A DNA stretch of 61,582 nt. Source: Methylobacter sp. (GTDB lineage Bacteria > Pseudomonadota > Gammaproteobacteria > Methylococcales > Methylomonadaceae). The notes below the pieces were generated by a model. It was given only the letters and a program-made list of their open reading frames with translations, was not told where the DNA came from and did no database searches. Of the stretch, positions 2,426 through 49,639 are shown in pieces (position 1 is the first letter of the stretch; each line of letters starts with the position of its first letter). Location of the stretch: NCBI GenBank assembly GCA_030653175.1, contig JAURZV010000037.1, forward strand, positions 1 to 61,582, in the 5' to 3' direction. A program made the position numbers and the translations under genes.

Positions 2426-2832
2426 TCAGGCCTTTTTTCTAAATCACCACTAGCAAACGTTAGGCTGGTTCACCAGATATTTTGTTTGTCGAGTTTAAGA
2501 ATAAAACTCTTATCTGCCTTGCCATCTACAAATATAATACTTTAAAGAACCTGATCCTGAGGTCAATACTGTTGACTTAAGCAATGCAAAGCCCTCTCCA
2601 GCGGGACGACTTGCAGGGATGCAGGAGGTAGAGCAACGCAGGAGCAGTTGCCGAGAGAGTTGGGTGAGGGGAAATCAAAATAAGGAAAAAAGCTTATTTG
2701 TATCCCCTCATCCCAGCCTTCTCCCTGAGGGAGAAGGGGCTGACGCTCTAAAGTCAACAGTATTGGATTCTGAGGTATCCCCACGAATTAACCTACCTCC
2801 AACTAATGTGTGTATGTGAGGTAATGGTCCAT
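2426..2832. other. Gene-free stretch composed of repeats
   Basis: Contains, in order: an AT-rich tract; one arm of the 29-bp inverted repeat (2556-2584); a copy of the GATGCAGGAGGTAGAGCAACG repeat family (2615-2655); and a CCCTGAGGGAGAAGG unit ending in AAGTCAACAGTATTGG (2722-2766). No coding sequence is supported. Confidence 0.6.
2615..2655 (+). repeat. GATGCAGGAGGTAGAGCAACG repeat
   Basis: One of at least six copies of a roughly 38-base partly palindromic repeat running from GATGCAGGAGGTAGAGC to AGCAGTTGCCGAG. Other copies lie at 10574-10692 (tandem), 23888-23922, 26586-26627 and 28585-28622; the last two lie inside coding sequence. A shortened reverse copy is at about 5786-5809. Confidence 0.75.
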
Positions 2833-5562: not shown

Positions 5563-5954
5563 TGTAAAAGGATAGCAATGTTGTCGATATTAAACAACAA
5601 AATCCACACCATTTTTTGAGTGGCCGGGTCTATTGCACCTCGGTGCCTTAACGACATAAAGCGGTGGCGGATATTTTAACCAGACCCCCATTATTTCAAC
5701 ATCAAAAACAGTCAGGCATCAACAACTCCCCGCGTGGAAAAGTCCAAGCGGGGGTCAATTTAGATCACCCCGATCATGGTGGATTGCCTCGGCAATTGCT
5801 CCTGCGTTGCCTAAAGCGCCTACTTTTGGTGATCTATCTCCTGCATAATCCACAGGAATGTGGTAAATGCGGATATTGCAGGAGCAAATATCTGTCCAGC
5901 TTGGTTTTAATCATACAAGTCGTAGCGGCGAATCCCCTTACAGCTTTCAATCGA
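5563..5954. other. Intergenic repeats between the GT41 gene and RAYT
   Basis: No supported gene. It contains a reverse partial copy of the AGCAACGCAGGAGCAATTGCC repeat (about 5786-5809) and a palindrome of the family that includes GGATATTGCAGGAGCAAATATC (about 5870-5895). A related palindrome lies at 23840-23885. The short open frames across it are accounted for by these repeats. Confidence 0.5.
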
Positions 5955-10398: not shown

Positions 10399-10724
10399 CG
10401 CAACTTCTCAGGCCTTCTTTTATTGTGTAGCTGCTCATGCCTTTGGTCTGTTTTAAACGGCCAAAGCAAGCTTTGGACTCCAAGAAATACAGATACCGGA
10501 GTTCAGCTTGCTTTGCCTACATGGATGTAGGTAAGGGGCGTGAGCACGACTGCCATGGATGCAGGACGGCTGCATGGATGCAGGACGACTGCATGGATGC
10601 AGGAGGTAGAGCAACGCAGGGAGCAGTTGCCGAGGTAGAGCAACGCAGGGAGCAGTTGCCGAGGTAGAGCAATGCAGGAGCGATTGCCGAGGAGCGGAAG
10701 CTTTGAAGCTTGCGATTCCAAACA
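10399..10724. repeat. Tandem repeat cluster between cobQ and cbiB
   Basis: Holds an inverted repeat pair AAAGCAAGCTTTGGACTCC...GAGTTCAGCTTGCTTTG (10453-10517, also at 13390-13440). Next come about three tandem copies of a unit containing GCATGGATGCAGGACGACT (about 10554-10600). Then come three tandem copies of a 30-base unit containing GAGGTAGAGCAACGCAGG (10602-10692). No gene is supported. These are local expansions of the repeat that also enters coding sequence at 26586 and 28585. Confidence 0.8.
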
Positions 10725-14817: not shown

Positions 14818-14959
14818 CCTCGTTCCCACGTGCTACGTGGGAACGCAGTATCGGCGCGCTGCGCCGCGTAAAGACTTAGGGTGCGATTCGGCTGTGGTTG
14901 CAGCATTTCAGGACGCGGCGCGTCCTGGATGCATCCCCACGTAGCGCTGGGGAACGAGA
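14818..14959. repeat. Palindromic repeat, CTCGTTCCCACG family, between cobT and cobS
   Basis: Begins CTCGTTCCCACGTGCTACG and ends with the inverted GCTGGGGAACGAG. Inner parts (GGACGCGGCGCGTCC, CGGCGCGCTGCGCCG) match the copy at 9-109. It occupies most of the 228-base gap between cobT and cobS. Confidence 0.75.
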
Positions 14960-23807: not shown

Positions 23808-24172
23808 GTAGATTTTTTACCACGAACGACTGCATGGACAGATATTTGCTTCTGCAATATCTGCATTCCCCGCATCCATGCGGGTTATGCAGGAGGTAGA
23901 GCAATGCAGGAGCAATTGCCGAGACACGAAGAACGCGAAGAAATAAAACTTCGTGTTCCTCACAGTCGGACGGGGCATGTTGCCCCCGTTCGAAACGTTT
24001 TGCATTGGTTGCGTGTAGCTATTTAGCTCAGACATCGCAAAAACGTTAGGGACGGGGTTGTAAACCCCGTCCCGCTTGAGCACACGAAGAAATAAAACTT
24101 CGTGTTCTTCGTGCCTTCGTGGTGATGCTTTATAGATTACCCGACCAACCCTTTTAATATGAGATTGCCATA
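23808..24172. repeat. 365-bp repeat-filled gap between speE and ubiK
   Basis: Contains, in order: a CAGATATTTGCTTCTGCAATATCTG palindrome region (about 23840-23870); a GATGCAGG-type repeat (GCAGGAGGTAGAGCAATGC, 23888-23922); a CACGAAG repeat (23925-23960); copy D of the 112-bp double palindrome (23967-24079); and another CACGAAG/CTTCGTG repeat (24083-24125). No gene supported. Confidence 0.75.
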
Positions 24173-26261: not shown

Positions 26262-26346
26262 AAAAAAACGGTTTTAATAGCCCTGAATTTTGTAAGCTAA
26301 CGATAAACCATAATATTTTTTAAACAACATAACCGGAGTCTTGATC

Positions 26347-26580
26347 ATGAGCTTCACTATTGAACAAATAGCCGAAGAGGCGCTTGCACTCCCTAGCGAT
26401 GCTCGGGCATTGCTTGCAGATCGCTTGGTTGAGAGTCTTGACCCTTTGGAGGATGTTTATATCCGACAGCTTTGGGCGGCTGAAGCTCGCATTCGGCGTG
26501 ACGATGTCAGGAGCGGTGCGGTTACTACCATCCCTGGGCGGGATGCTTTGGCGCATGTGCGGAAGTCTGTTGTACGGTAG
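26347..26580 (+). CDS. Addiction module protein (antitoxin, putative addiction module component family)
   Basis: Start at ATG 26347 preceded by CCGGAG at about 26333, giving 77 residues. The sequence IEQIAEEALALPSDARALLADRLVESLD is the hallmark of the small antitoxins that accompany ParE/RelE-type toxins. Its C-terminal part (AEARIRRDDVRSGAVTTIPGRDALAHV) is intact. The toxin gene starts 5 bases after its stop, within a repeat. Confidence 0.85.
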   Translation: MSFTIEQIAEEALALPSDARALLADRLVESLDPLEDVYIRQLWAAEARIRRDDVRSGAVTTIPGRDALAHVRKSVVR

Positions 26581-26585
26581 ACTGC

Positions 26586-26927
26586 ATGGATGCAGGATGT
26601 AGAGCAATGCATGGAGCAATTGCCGAGAGATTCGAGTTTCATCCAGAGGCGCTTTCCGAATATGAAGATGCCGCTCGATATTATGCAAGTTGTCAGACTG
26701 GATTAGAGCTACGCTTCATGTCAGCGGTCGAGCATGTCATCCAACAAATAGTTGAAGCGCCTGAACGCTGGCCGATAATTGAAGATGACATTCGCCGATG
26801 TTTAACCCGTGTTTTTCCTTATGTCGTTTTTTACTCAATTGAAAAGGATTACGTGCTCATTCTTTCCGTCATGCACTGTCACCGTGAACCAGGATATTGG
26901 CGTAATCGGTCTGCAAAGAATCAGTAA
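26586..26927 (+). CDS. ParE/RelE-family toxin with repeat-encoded N terminus
   Basis: A 113-residue protein. From residue 16 the sequence RFEFHPEALSEYEDAARYYA is a normal ParE/RelE start, followed by the fold's ERWPIIEDDIRRCLTRVFPYVVFY and ILSVMHCHREPGYW. The first 15 residues (MDAGCRAMHGAIAER) are encoded by a copy of the GATGCAGGAGGTAGAGC repeat (26586-26627), which also provides the ATG. Typical relatives begin with a Met just before the FEFHPEA segment. So the repeat inserted at the gene start, keeping the frame. Whether translation begins in the repeat or at a weaker internal codon cannot be told. Toxins of this class target gyrase or ribosome-bound mRNA. Confidence 0.8.
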   Translation: MDAGCRAMHGAIAERFEFHPEALSEYEDAARYYASCQTGLELRFMSAVEHVIQQIVEAPERWPIIEDDIRRCLTRVFPYVVFYSIEKDYVLILSVMHCHREPGYWRNRSAKNQ

Positions 26928-27021: not shown

Positions 27022-29073
27022 ATGTCCAAACTAAACCCCCAACAACAAGCCGCTGTTAAAGCGATTGATCATCCCTTATTGGTGCTGGCCGGAGCGGGCA
27101 GCGGCAAGACGCGGGTGATTACCGAAAAAATCGCTTACTTGGTCAAGCAAGGCCTGCCTGCGCGGCATATTGCGGCGGTGACCTTCACCAACAAAGCCGC
27201 GCGGGAAATGAAAAGCCGGGTGTCCAAACTGCTGGATGACAAGCAACAGCGCGGCCTGCGGGTATCCACCTTCCATTCCTTGGGCCTGGATATATTGCGG
27301 GCGGAATCCAAGACGCTGGGCTATAAAGCGGGCCTCACCCTGTTTGACGAGCAAGACAAGCACACGCTGCTGCGCAACTTGATCAGCCACGGCGCAAAAG
27401 ACTGCGATATTGACAACATCGATATTTATGCCCGGCAAATCGGGCAATGGAAAAATGCTTTTGTCACGCCGGAGCAGTCCGTGACCATAGCTAAAGCCAA
27501 CGAATACCCGGCGGCCAACCTGTACATCGATTACACTCGCAGCCTAAAAGCCTACAATGCGGTCGATTTCGACGACCTGATTCTGTTGCCGGTGCTGCTG
27601 TTCCAACAACACCCGGCCATTTTGGAAAAATGGCAAAACAAGATCCGCTATTTGCTGGTCGATGAATACCAGGACACCAATATCACCCAATACCAGCTGG
27701 TGCGCTTAATCGCCGGTAACTTGGGGCGGTTTACCGTGGTCGGCGATGATGACCAGTCCATTTATGCCTGGCGCGGCGCACAGCCGGAAAACCTGGCGCA
27801 ATTGCAAAAAGACTACGCCCGCCTGCAAGTCATCAAGCTGGAGCAGAATTACCGCTCCACCGGGCGCATCCTTAAAGTCGCCAACCAGCTGATCGCCAAT
27901 AATCCCCATGCCTTTGAAAAAAGGCTGTGGAGCGAGCTGGGTTACGGCGATCCGCTACGGGTTTTAAGCCATAAAGACGAGCAGATCGAAGCCCAGCAGA
28001 TCGTATCCGAGATCATCCATCATAAGTTCAAGACAGGCAGCAATTACCAGGACTATGCGATTTTATATCGCGGCAACCATCAGTCCCGGTTGTTCGAGAA
28101 GGGCCTTCGGGAAAACAACATCCCGTATTTCATCAGCGGCAGCACCTCGTTTTTCGCCTATTCGGAAATCAAGGACATCCTCGGCTACCTGCGCTTGTTT
28201 GTTAACCAGGATGACGATGCGGCGTTTTTGCGCGTGATCAACACCCCCAAACGGGAAATCGGCCCAAGCACCTTGGAAAAGCTCGGCGCGTATGCCAATG
28301 AGCGTCACATCAGCCTGTTTGCGGCCAGCACCGAGTTCGGCTTGAGCCAAAAGCTGTCCGAAAAAGCCATGCAGCGGCTAACAAAATTCCGCGATTGGGT
28401 GATTGATACCGCAGACCGTATCGAGCGGGGCGATACCTTTGCGGTCATCGAACAGTTCATCGATCAAATCGGTTATTCGCAGCATTTACAGGAAGAAAGC
28501 AAAACCAAGGAATCCGCCGACCGCAAGCTAAAAAATGTCTACGAGCTGGTCGAATGGCTAAAACGCATCGCCGACGACTGCAAGGATGCAGGAGGTAGAG
28601 CAACGCATGGAGCAGTTGCCGACAAGGAAACCGATGGTCAAAAACCGCTGGCGGAAATCGTCGCCAAAATCATGCTGATGGACATCATGGAACGTAATCA
28701 GGAAGACGAAGTCAGCGATCAGGTCAGCCTGATGACCCTGCACGCCGCCAAAGGGCTGGAATTTCCGCATGTGTTTTTGATCGGCATCGAAGAAAATATC
28801 CTGCCCCATCAAAACAGCATTGAAACCGACAACATAGAAGAAGAGCGACGCCTGGCCTACGTCGGCATCACCCGCGCCCAGCGCACCTGCACGTTCAGCT
28901 ACTGCACCCACCGCAAGCGTTACGGCGAAGTCGCCGAATGCGAGCCCAGCCGGTTCTTAAGCGAACTGCCCGAAGACGACCTGGAATGGGTCAACAAAAA
29001 ACAGCTGGCCCCCGAAGTTATCAAAGAGCGCGGCAAGGCGAGCTTAGCGCACTTGAAAACAATGTTGTCGTAA
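27022..29073 (+). CDS. rep: ATP-dependent DNA helicase Rep, with an in-frame repeat insertion
   Basis: A 683-residue SF1A helicase that moves 3' to 5' on single-stranded DNA and clears protein blocks ahead of forks. Motifs in order: AGAGSGKTR (Walker A, about 22-30), [43 protein letters not shown] and [10 protein letters not shown]. The C-terminal LPEDDLEW...SLAHLKTML matches E. coli Rep rather than UvrD. Residues 522-534 ([13 protein letters not shown]) are encoded by a copy of a dispersed repeat (28585-28622). They lie in the 2B/2A junction region between [10 protein letters not shown] and [15 protein letters not shown], where E. coli Rep has a shorter linker. The frame is preserved, so the helicase is probably functional with an extra surface loop. 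Confidence 0.92.
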
Positions 29074-29105: not shown

Positions 29106-29182
29106 GCGCCCGTAGCTCAGCTGGATAGAGTACAGCCCTCCGAAGGCTGTGGTCAGAGGTTCGAATCCCCTCGGGCGCGCCA
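29106..29182 (+). tRNA. tRNA-Arg (anticodon CCG)
   Basis: A 77-base cloverleaf: acceptor GCGCCCG pairs with CGGGCGC, with a discriminator G and encoded CCA at 29180-29182. The D-arm has AGCTCAGCTGGATAGAG. The anticodon stem CAGCC/GGCTG has the loop CTCCGAA (anticodon CCG, reading CGG), and the T-loop is GGTTCGAATCC. It starts 32 bases after rep. Confidence 0.95.
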
Positions 29183-49275: not shown

Positions 49276-49639
49276 CAACAAGCCCGTAGGCCGGGCGCAG
49301 CGTCTGGCAACGGTGATTTTATCATTCCCACGCTGGAGTGGGAATGATGCAACTTTTTACCTTGAACATTAATGCTAAACTTTAAAAATATTCCCCTCGT
49401 TCCCACGCGCTGCGTGGGAACGAGGGGAATTTATCTATTAATCGGCTTGGCAATATTGAATATATCATTTCTGGCGTTTATTGGATCGCTTAAACTTTAG
49501 TGCGTAGATGGGTAGAGCGCAGCGAAACCCATCGCATAGGTGATTGTTCATGATGGGTTTCGGCTATAGCCTCTACCCATCCTACAACCTACGAACCAGC
49601 GTAATGTCTTTCACCTTGAACCTTTTACCTTGAACCTCA
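49276..49639. repeat. Repeat-filled gap upstream of yheS
   Basis: Contains ATCATTCCCACG...GTGGGAATGAT (about 49321-49349); a perfect 39-base palindrome with core CTCGTTCCCACGCGCTGCG (49391-49429); and an inverted repeat GATGGGTAGAGCGCAGCGAA...GCCTCTACCCATC (49504-49582). It also has a small direct repeat TTTACCTTGAACAT/TTTACCTTGAACCT flanking part of it (49358, 49625). No gene seen. Confidence 0.75.

Follow-up and report, generated by a model that had tools for sequence, protein, structure and literature searches.

A dispersed 48-bp palindromic element inserted in frame in the Rep helicase gene of Methylobacter and related methanotrophs

The rep gene of Methylobacter sp. assembly GCA_030653175.1 raises the question of how a short dispersed repeat comes to stand in frame within the gene for a DNA helicase. 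The window, meaning the whole stretch of 61,582 nucleotides that was analysed (contig JAURZV010000037.1), contained a 683-aa ORF at 27022-29073 that matched the TIGR01074 rep profile at 956.1 bits (cut-off 951.45) and the PF00580 and PF13361 domains; its best solved relative was 1uaa (E=2.6e-226), named there as Rep helicase. A sequence-only reading of this DNA had claimed that a repeat found at no fewer than five further sites is translated in frame within Rep. Consistent with this claim, the 17-mer GATGCAGGAGGTAGAGC occurred exactly at 28585, in frame inside the ORF scoring above the TIGR01074 cut-off, and at five other places in the window with up to three mismatches, against a chance mean of 0.11. 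The length of 38 bases assigned to the repeat proved too short, as the unit spans 48 bp (28575-28622) and the 38 bases form its right part. The statement that E. coli Rep is shorter in this stretch was borne out by alignment with 1uaa, which showed gaps of 11 and 4 residues. The features of the gene and its insert are as follows.

27022..29073, plus strand: rep gene (DNA helicase Rep), 683-aa ORF including the insert; matches to TIGR01074, PF00580, PF13361 and 1uaa.
28575..28622, plus strand: 48-bp palindromic element, an in-frame insertion of 16 aa in Rep; alignment of filled and empty sites, boundaries from 56 copies.
28578..28591, plus strand: left hairpin CTGCA-AGGA-TGCAG; fold and covarying pair 5-16.
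28595..28598, plus strand: GTAG tetranucleotide 5' of the right hairpin, a REP-like tag; sequence, with GTAG given as a REP tag in excerpts of PMC3733652 and PMC8266576.
28600..28619, plus strand: right hairpin GCAACGC-ATGGA-GC(A)GTTGC with one bulged A; fold and covarying pair 30-41.
28570..28575, plus strand: left GCCGAC copy, the empty-site sequence; sequence and filled/empty alignment.
28618..28623, plus strand: right GCCGAC copy, of which GCCGA is the element's own end; sequence, filled/empty alignment and the boundaries of 56 copies.

As in GTAG-tagged REPs, the GTAG at 28595-28598 stands beside an imperfect palindrome, one base ahead of the right hairpin. Because GCCGAC flanks the insert on both sides, its placement is ambiguous over 28570-28623. 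Taken alone, the Rep site may permit a 6-bp target duplication of GCCGAC; it was not counted as such because GCCGA ends the element in other copies. A tRNA-Arg gene (ccg; window 29106-29182) lies immediately downstream of rep.

Across the 4.0-Mb assembly of 109 contigs, the core 17-mer was found at 142 places with at most two mismatches, compared with 2 for a reversed-pattern control, a dispersed high copy number like that of GTAG-tagged REPs. Inspection covered 102 copies: stretches over 94 of 100 places taken from the 142, plus the window, yielded 96 distinct copies, 56 of which fit a strict full-length pattern, and the remaining six places yielded six more copies, none strict. Strict copies measured 48 bp (30 copies), 47 bp (24) or 49 bp (2), and their consensus was CGACTGCATGGATGCAGGAGGTAGAGCAAYGCANGGAGCARTTGCCGA. 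The base 5' of the element was A in 51/56 strict copies and the base 3' was G in 48/56. By eye, the left and right flanks of the 56 copies shared no repeat beyond the near-constant A, which is possibly the element's own, and no terminal inverted repeats were seen at the element ends. The element was present in 92 of 237 family genomes, representing 18 of 29 genera. The other copies in the window are listed below.

2607..2654, plus strand: element copy; 17-mer match with strict ends.
5831..5847, minus strand: core of a diverged copy, interrupted by another repeat; 17-mer match.
10586..10690, plus strand: composite copy of the element with repeated right halves; sequence comparison.
23886..23923, plus strand: copy with a different left part; 17-mer match.
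26577..26624, plus strand: copy at the junction of antitoxin and ParE-like genes, ends approximate; 17-mer match.

The last of these, at about 26577-26624, overlaps the start of the ParE-like ORF and is not purely intergenic. A PF09720 antitoxin-like ORF is followed there by a PF05016 ParE-like toxin ORF (26341-26924); the first residues of the latter, MDAGCRAMHGAIAE, are encoded by the element copy, and its true start may lie further on.

Folded as a single strand, the element formed two hairpins, with z scores of -3.9, -2.9 and -3.9 in three variants. Paired changes were found in both hairpins: among 19 distinct 48-mers, pair 30-41 was C-G in 14 and T-A in 5, pair 5-16 was T-A in 18 and G-C in 1, and one other hairpin pair was broken in 1. 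These counts draw on 19 of 21 distinct 48-mers (18 from this genome and 1 from relatives), leaving aside two with a shifted left arm and all six distinct 47-mers. Two subterminal hairpins without terminal inverted repeats (the latter judged by eye) are also a trait of PATEs, as is the lack of target duplication, which was seen by eye over the 56 copies, with a DNA-level empty site from rep alone.

Element copies also nested within their own kind at GGA^GGTAG, giving 96 bp, and by eye many sat inside other palindromes. A third repeat, CGACTGCCATGGATGGYGG...GTGTCGCAAYCGGTA^GGGAACCGATGCGACC, hosted nested copies at five loci (L235, L184, L168, L164 and L185), four of them in long ORFs; its left hairpin resembles that of the element and its right hairpin does not. 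A preference for hairpin loops as targets is not claimed: in 55 joined sites the excess over 2200 random A^GR sites from the same loci was slight (p=0.008 and 0.02).

If the extra residues were an ordinary part of Rep, they would be expected in orthologues from genomes that lack the repeat. Among 24 aligned sequences of the genus, the 16 residues were present in four (G000, the genome of the window; G013, G002 and G005), each with 48 extra bases; carriers of the element apart, they were seen in none of the other Reps aligned from the genus, the family and further Gammaproteobacteria. Sixteen of the remaining 20, one from a partial gene, had the plain site (...CGCATC GCCGAC AAG...). G006, G011, G018 and, less clearly, G019 carried other extra bases 4-9 bp downstream, a range set by the placement of the first insert. 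The 48-bp element is an insertion in rep, in frame, adding 16 residues. One carrier, G002, had both a rep with the insert (L011) and a second rep without it that was cut by a contig end (L032), and may be a mixed assembly or contaminated.

The element also interrupted unrelated proteins, compared here as protein sequences; empty sites were aligned at the DNA level for rep alone. Inserts of 16 aa were present in G000 alone of 23 rows of aligned MurE orthologues and of 20 rows of a NirB-like flavoprotein, and in 3 of 18 aligned rows of FlgJ, for which 7 of 25 matches, pieces from G008, G014 and G019 (L323-L329), were left unaligned. RpoS had a clear insert in six of 24 rows (G000, G002, G021 and G011, with longer ones in G013 and G008), three rows with diverged or unclear extra residues (G006, G018, G019), 14 empty rows and one partial row. 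In Rep, RpoS, MurE, the NirB-like protein and FlgJ the element thus behaves like Rickettsia palindromic elements, entering unrelated genes in frame where orthologues are empty. Judged from family models alone, the element site was also spanned in NifN, YhdP, CcmI, an ATP-grasp protein and a GAF domain belonging to a hybrid histidine kinase; for a RAYT-like ORF the match came in two pieces. The gene murE is essential in bacteria generally. Since the MurE and NirB-like inserts were confined to G000, the element was probably still moving after the species had diverged; the tree of MurE and NirB was built with the inserts left in and is a rough guide.

Insertion within genes was associated with preservation of the reading frame. 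A copy was counted as genic when joining its flanks restored an interrupted ORF of 200 aa or more that reached 40 aa to either side of the site; the stretches were about 2.5 kb, which truncated long ORFs. By this definition 16 of the 56 strict copies were genic, and 15 of these 16 had lengths that were multiples of three, compared with 14 of 40 elsewhere (Fisher p=6e-5); the six further copies, none strict, left the test unchanged. The sole exception, a 47-bp copy, shifts the frame of an IS21 transposase (258 bits, cut-off 160). Because several genic copies share one host repeat (L235, L184, L168 and L164), they are not fully independent, and at four of the 16 (L184, L212, L164, L158) no model clearly spanned the site. 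Genic copies used three reading frames, including GNCSMHCSTSCIHAVV on the opposite strand, and five of the six frames of the window copy were free of stops. The proposal of the sequence-only reading that a mobile palindromic element had inserted was upheld by an element that is multicopy, palindromic, polymorphic among species and in frame in other genes with empty orthologues.

An AlphaFold model of Rep, with P0001 and 40 of 80 related loci as input, had a mean pLDDT of 84.5. Values fell below 50 at residues 524-539, in a loop between helices 496-523 and 543-559 that we take to be probably the end of the 2B subdomain. As the insert occupies about residues 518-534, most of it lies inside this low-confidence loop, and the loop with the insert is predicted to be loose.

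These observations are very probably explained by insertion of a non-autonomous mobile palindrome in rep, with the frame kept and the loop lengthened. A 48-bp palindrome with two near-terminal hairpins and an internal GTAG would have entered rep as a non-autonomous mobile element, and its 16 residues would have joined the loop between the two helices. The reading frame would have survived because the element measures 3 x 16 bp and is stop-free in five of six frames. Selection would then remove copies that break the frame of a useful gene, so that genes retain copies that keep the frame, while 47- and 48-bp copies both occur elsewhere. The inserted 16-aa peptide is presumably made, and Rep with the insert presumably still works.

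The same Rep linker was compared across the family, where 206 of 237 genomes yielded a Rep match (E up to 1e-200) and linkers were read from 30 returned loci, 20 fetched loci picked mostly for unusual length, and the genus members. The 48-bp element was present at the corresponding position in two genomes of another genus, g10 (G045 and G047), and absent from two others of g10 (G046 and G048). By eye, a diverged form lay several codons further on in Rep of Methylomonas koyamae (G106) and of G107. A second palindrome, of the GTTCCCACGC...GCRTGGGAAC type, occurred in 23/23 genus genomes and lay within Rep of G006, G011 and G018; diverged relatives of it were recognised by eye in the Rep linkers of G034, G035, G052, G055 and G061, and linkers of the same length without a clear palindrome were found in G057 and G067-G070. 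In the linkers read, three genera carry the element, intact or diverged, and others carry the second palindrome or its apparent decayed form, which suggests that this loop was a target on more than one occasion. Copies of the second palindrome (CGTTCCCACGC...GCGTGGGAACG) also lie in the window at 12-34, 14822-14844 and 49399-49421. In G147 (L373), the same place in the linker holds a long D/E run.

Between g1 and g10, the Rep inserts were identical at 45, 44, 44 and 43 of 48 positions, compared with 76.6-77.6% of 397 in the flanks, an excess with p=0.005, 0.023, 0.024 and 0.061 over four non-independent pairs. No such excess was found between G106 and G000 (65.7% of 35 in the insert vs 66.6%), and the window insert was hardly more similar to that of G013 than its flanks were (93.8% vs 92.0%). 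Because the g1 and g10 inserts are more alike than their flanks, these comparisons give moderate preference to separate arrival, or to homogenisation between copies, over simple vertical descent of the Rep insert.

If rep had received the element once, long ago, and descendants had lost it precisely many times by slippage between the GCCGAC repeats, the scatter of the element would record losses and not new hits. The four carriers were indeed scattered among empty alleles in the Rep tree (built without the partial G007 row), which had weak support and did not decide the inheritance; the inserts of G013, G002 and G005 were identical at 48/48 positions, hairpins and 6-bp direct repeats would favour precise deletion, and G045 and G047 of g10 are filled at the corresponding position. 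However, this history, which we consider rather unlikely, does not account for the excess of insert over flank identity between g1 and g10 (p=0.005 to 0.061, four non-independent pairs), for the displaced position in M. koyamae and G107 noted by eye, or for MurE and NirB-like inserts in one genome alone, which point to an element that probably moved since the species split.

Slightly less probable still is a spread or homogenisation of the insert, not through repeated transposition but through transfer of rep segments between alleles or through gene conversion templated by copies elsewhere in the genome. The identical inserts of G013, G002 and G005 lie between flanks that differ by about 8% (92.0-92.5% identity of G002 and G005 to G013), and the chance of 48/48 matches at a rate of 0.92 is about 0.018. 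Against transfer, the empty allele G021 was the nearest or equal nearest to each of the four carriers within 300 bp, and first arrival of the element is left unexplained. Two further accounts can be set aside as extremely improbable: an ordinary indel in the linker with a chance likeness to the repeat, which could appeal to Rep linkers varying by some residues in other Gammaproteobacteria but is refuted by the filled and empty Rep sites, by the fit of the 48 bases to the genomic consensus (chance 0.11 for the 17-mer in the window) and by recurrence of the unit in other genes; and an assembly artefact, since short repeats can misassemble and the genome is in 109 contigs, yet three further assemblies of the genus and two of another have the insert at this position, and 48 bp is shorter than the usual read.

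Insertion of a mobile palindrome, the preferred reading, has a wider form that we offer tentatively and hold to be somewhat short of probable. The Rep loop would be a recurrent landing pad: palindromes unrelated to one another would have been captured there on separate occasions in several genera of methanotrophs, would have stayed in frame and would then have decayed to linker peptide, the longer loop being perhaps tolerated or even helicase-tuning.

The element presumably moves by way of a transposase of the HUH/Y1 type that acts on single strands, for instance a RAYT: the hairpins, GTAG, bulge, absence of a clear duplication and presence of RAYT genes fit single-strand transposition by a Y1 enzyme. 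In the parts of PMC8266576 consulted here, GTAG and the bulge are described as important for cleavage of E. coli REPs, and an excerpt of PMC2817692 states that RAYT genes are always flanked by their REPs. The genome had 13 Y1_Tnp matches; nine were scanned, eight of them above the RAYT cut-off. Strict hairpins were found within about 1.5 kb (less at contig ends) of none of these 13 loci in G000 and none of 19 from relatives, a subset of the relatives' loci, and looser hairpin motifs gave scattered short matches only. At these 32 Y1 loci, no RAYT flanked by the 48-bp element, the arrangement that defines REP/RAYT units, and no IS605-type parent sharing its ends was found. Three RAYT genes (L146, L144, L149) adjoin other GTAG repeats (e.g., GGATGGGTAGAGCGGTAGCGAAACCCATC), not the 48-bp element, and repeats that look similar by eye serve as landing sites for the element. 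Outside the 13 loci, a RAYT-like ORF (L215:2540-3796, minus strand) contains an element copy at 2784-2831, and an inverted copy (L215:1203-1250) lies 1.3 kb past its end; this arrangement may reflect accidental nesting within another repeat, or it may be what is left of a former unit. An upstream part of this ORF reads as repeated RGDRPVAPT, apparently another GC-rich repeat that is translated.

Palindromes that invade proteins are already known. In its available text, PMC3733652 (Di Nocera 2013) describes GTAG-tagged REPs inside genes, including UvrD/REP helicase and other repair genes, and discusses the Rickettsia elements; "methylo", "empty" and "duplication" are absent from its main text as available. 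Its intragenic REPs resemble the present element in being short GTAG-tagged stem-loops with many copies, some intragenic, but here each 48-bp unit has two hairpins and no flanking RAYT was found among the scanned loci. Excerpts of PMC2817692 and PMC8266576 describe REPs/BIMEs with RAYTs that share GTAG, a bulged stem and RAYT genes in the genome; unlike those, the three RAYT genes here whose flanks were read adjoin other GTAG repeats. Rickettsia palindromic elements (Ogata 2000, 2002), as described in passages of PMC3733652 and PMC10969869, are translated in frame in unrelated proteins, and the latter, which reviews in-frame palindromes, gives their length as about 150 bp. The earlier comparison with them holds as an analogy of behaviour, palindromes in frame within unrelated proteins; the host here is, to judge by the names of its relatives, a free-living methanotroph, and the element is 48 bp. 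The two-palindrome PATEs, some only 52 bp and among them terminal-only derivatives of IS605 in Haloquadratum (PMC3119063, in part), likewise have near-terminal palindromes without terminal inverted repeats or target duplication, and their insertions are strain-specific as those of the 48-bp element are species-specific; in contrast, here there are in-frame protein insertions, with no IS605 parent with these ends among 32 Y1 loci. Among the literature matches listed, none concerned Methylobacter repeats or a 48-bp family in methanotrophs.

To these systems the present analysis adds an element family, matched filled and empty alleles, and a single loop of Rep that appears to have been used repeatedly. 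The frame-keeping length of 48 bp has a frame-breaking sibling of 47 bp, and one protein loop holds two kinds of palindrome. The genus allows the entry of palindromes into proteins to be tracked by comparing species through filled and empty alleles, as in murE, and a long-standing question, whether selfish palindromes give rise to new parts of proteins, becomes testable on matched alleles.
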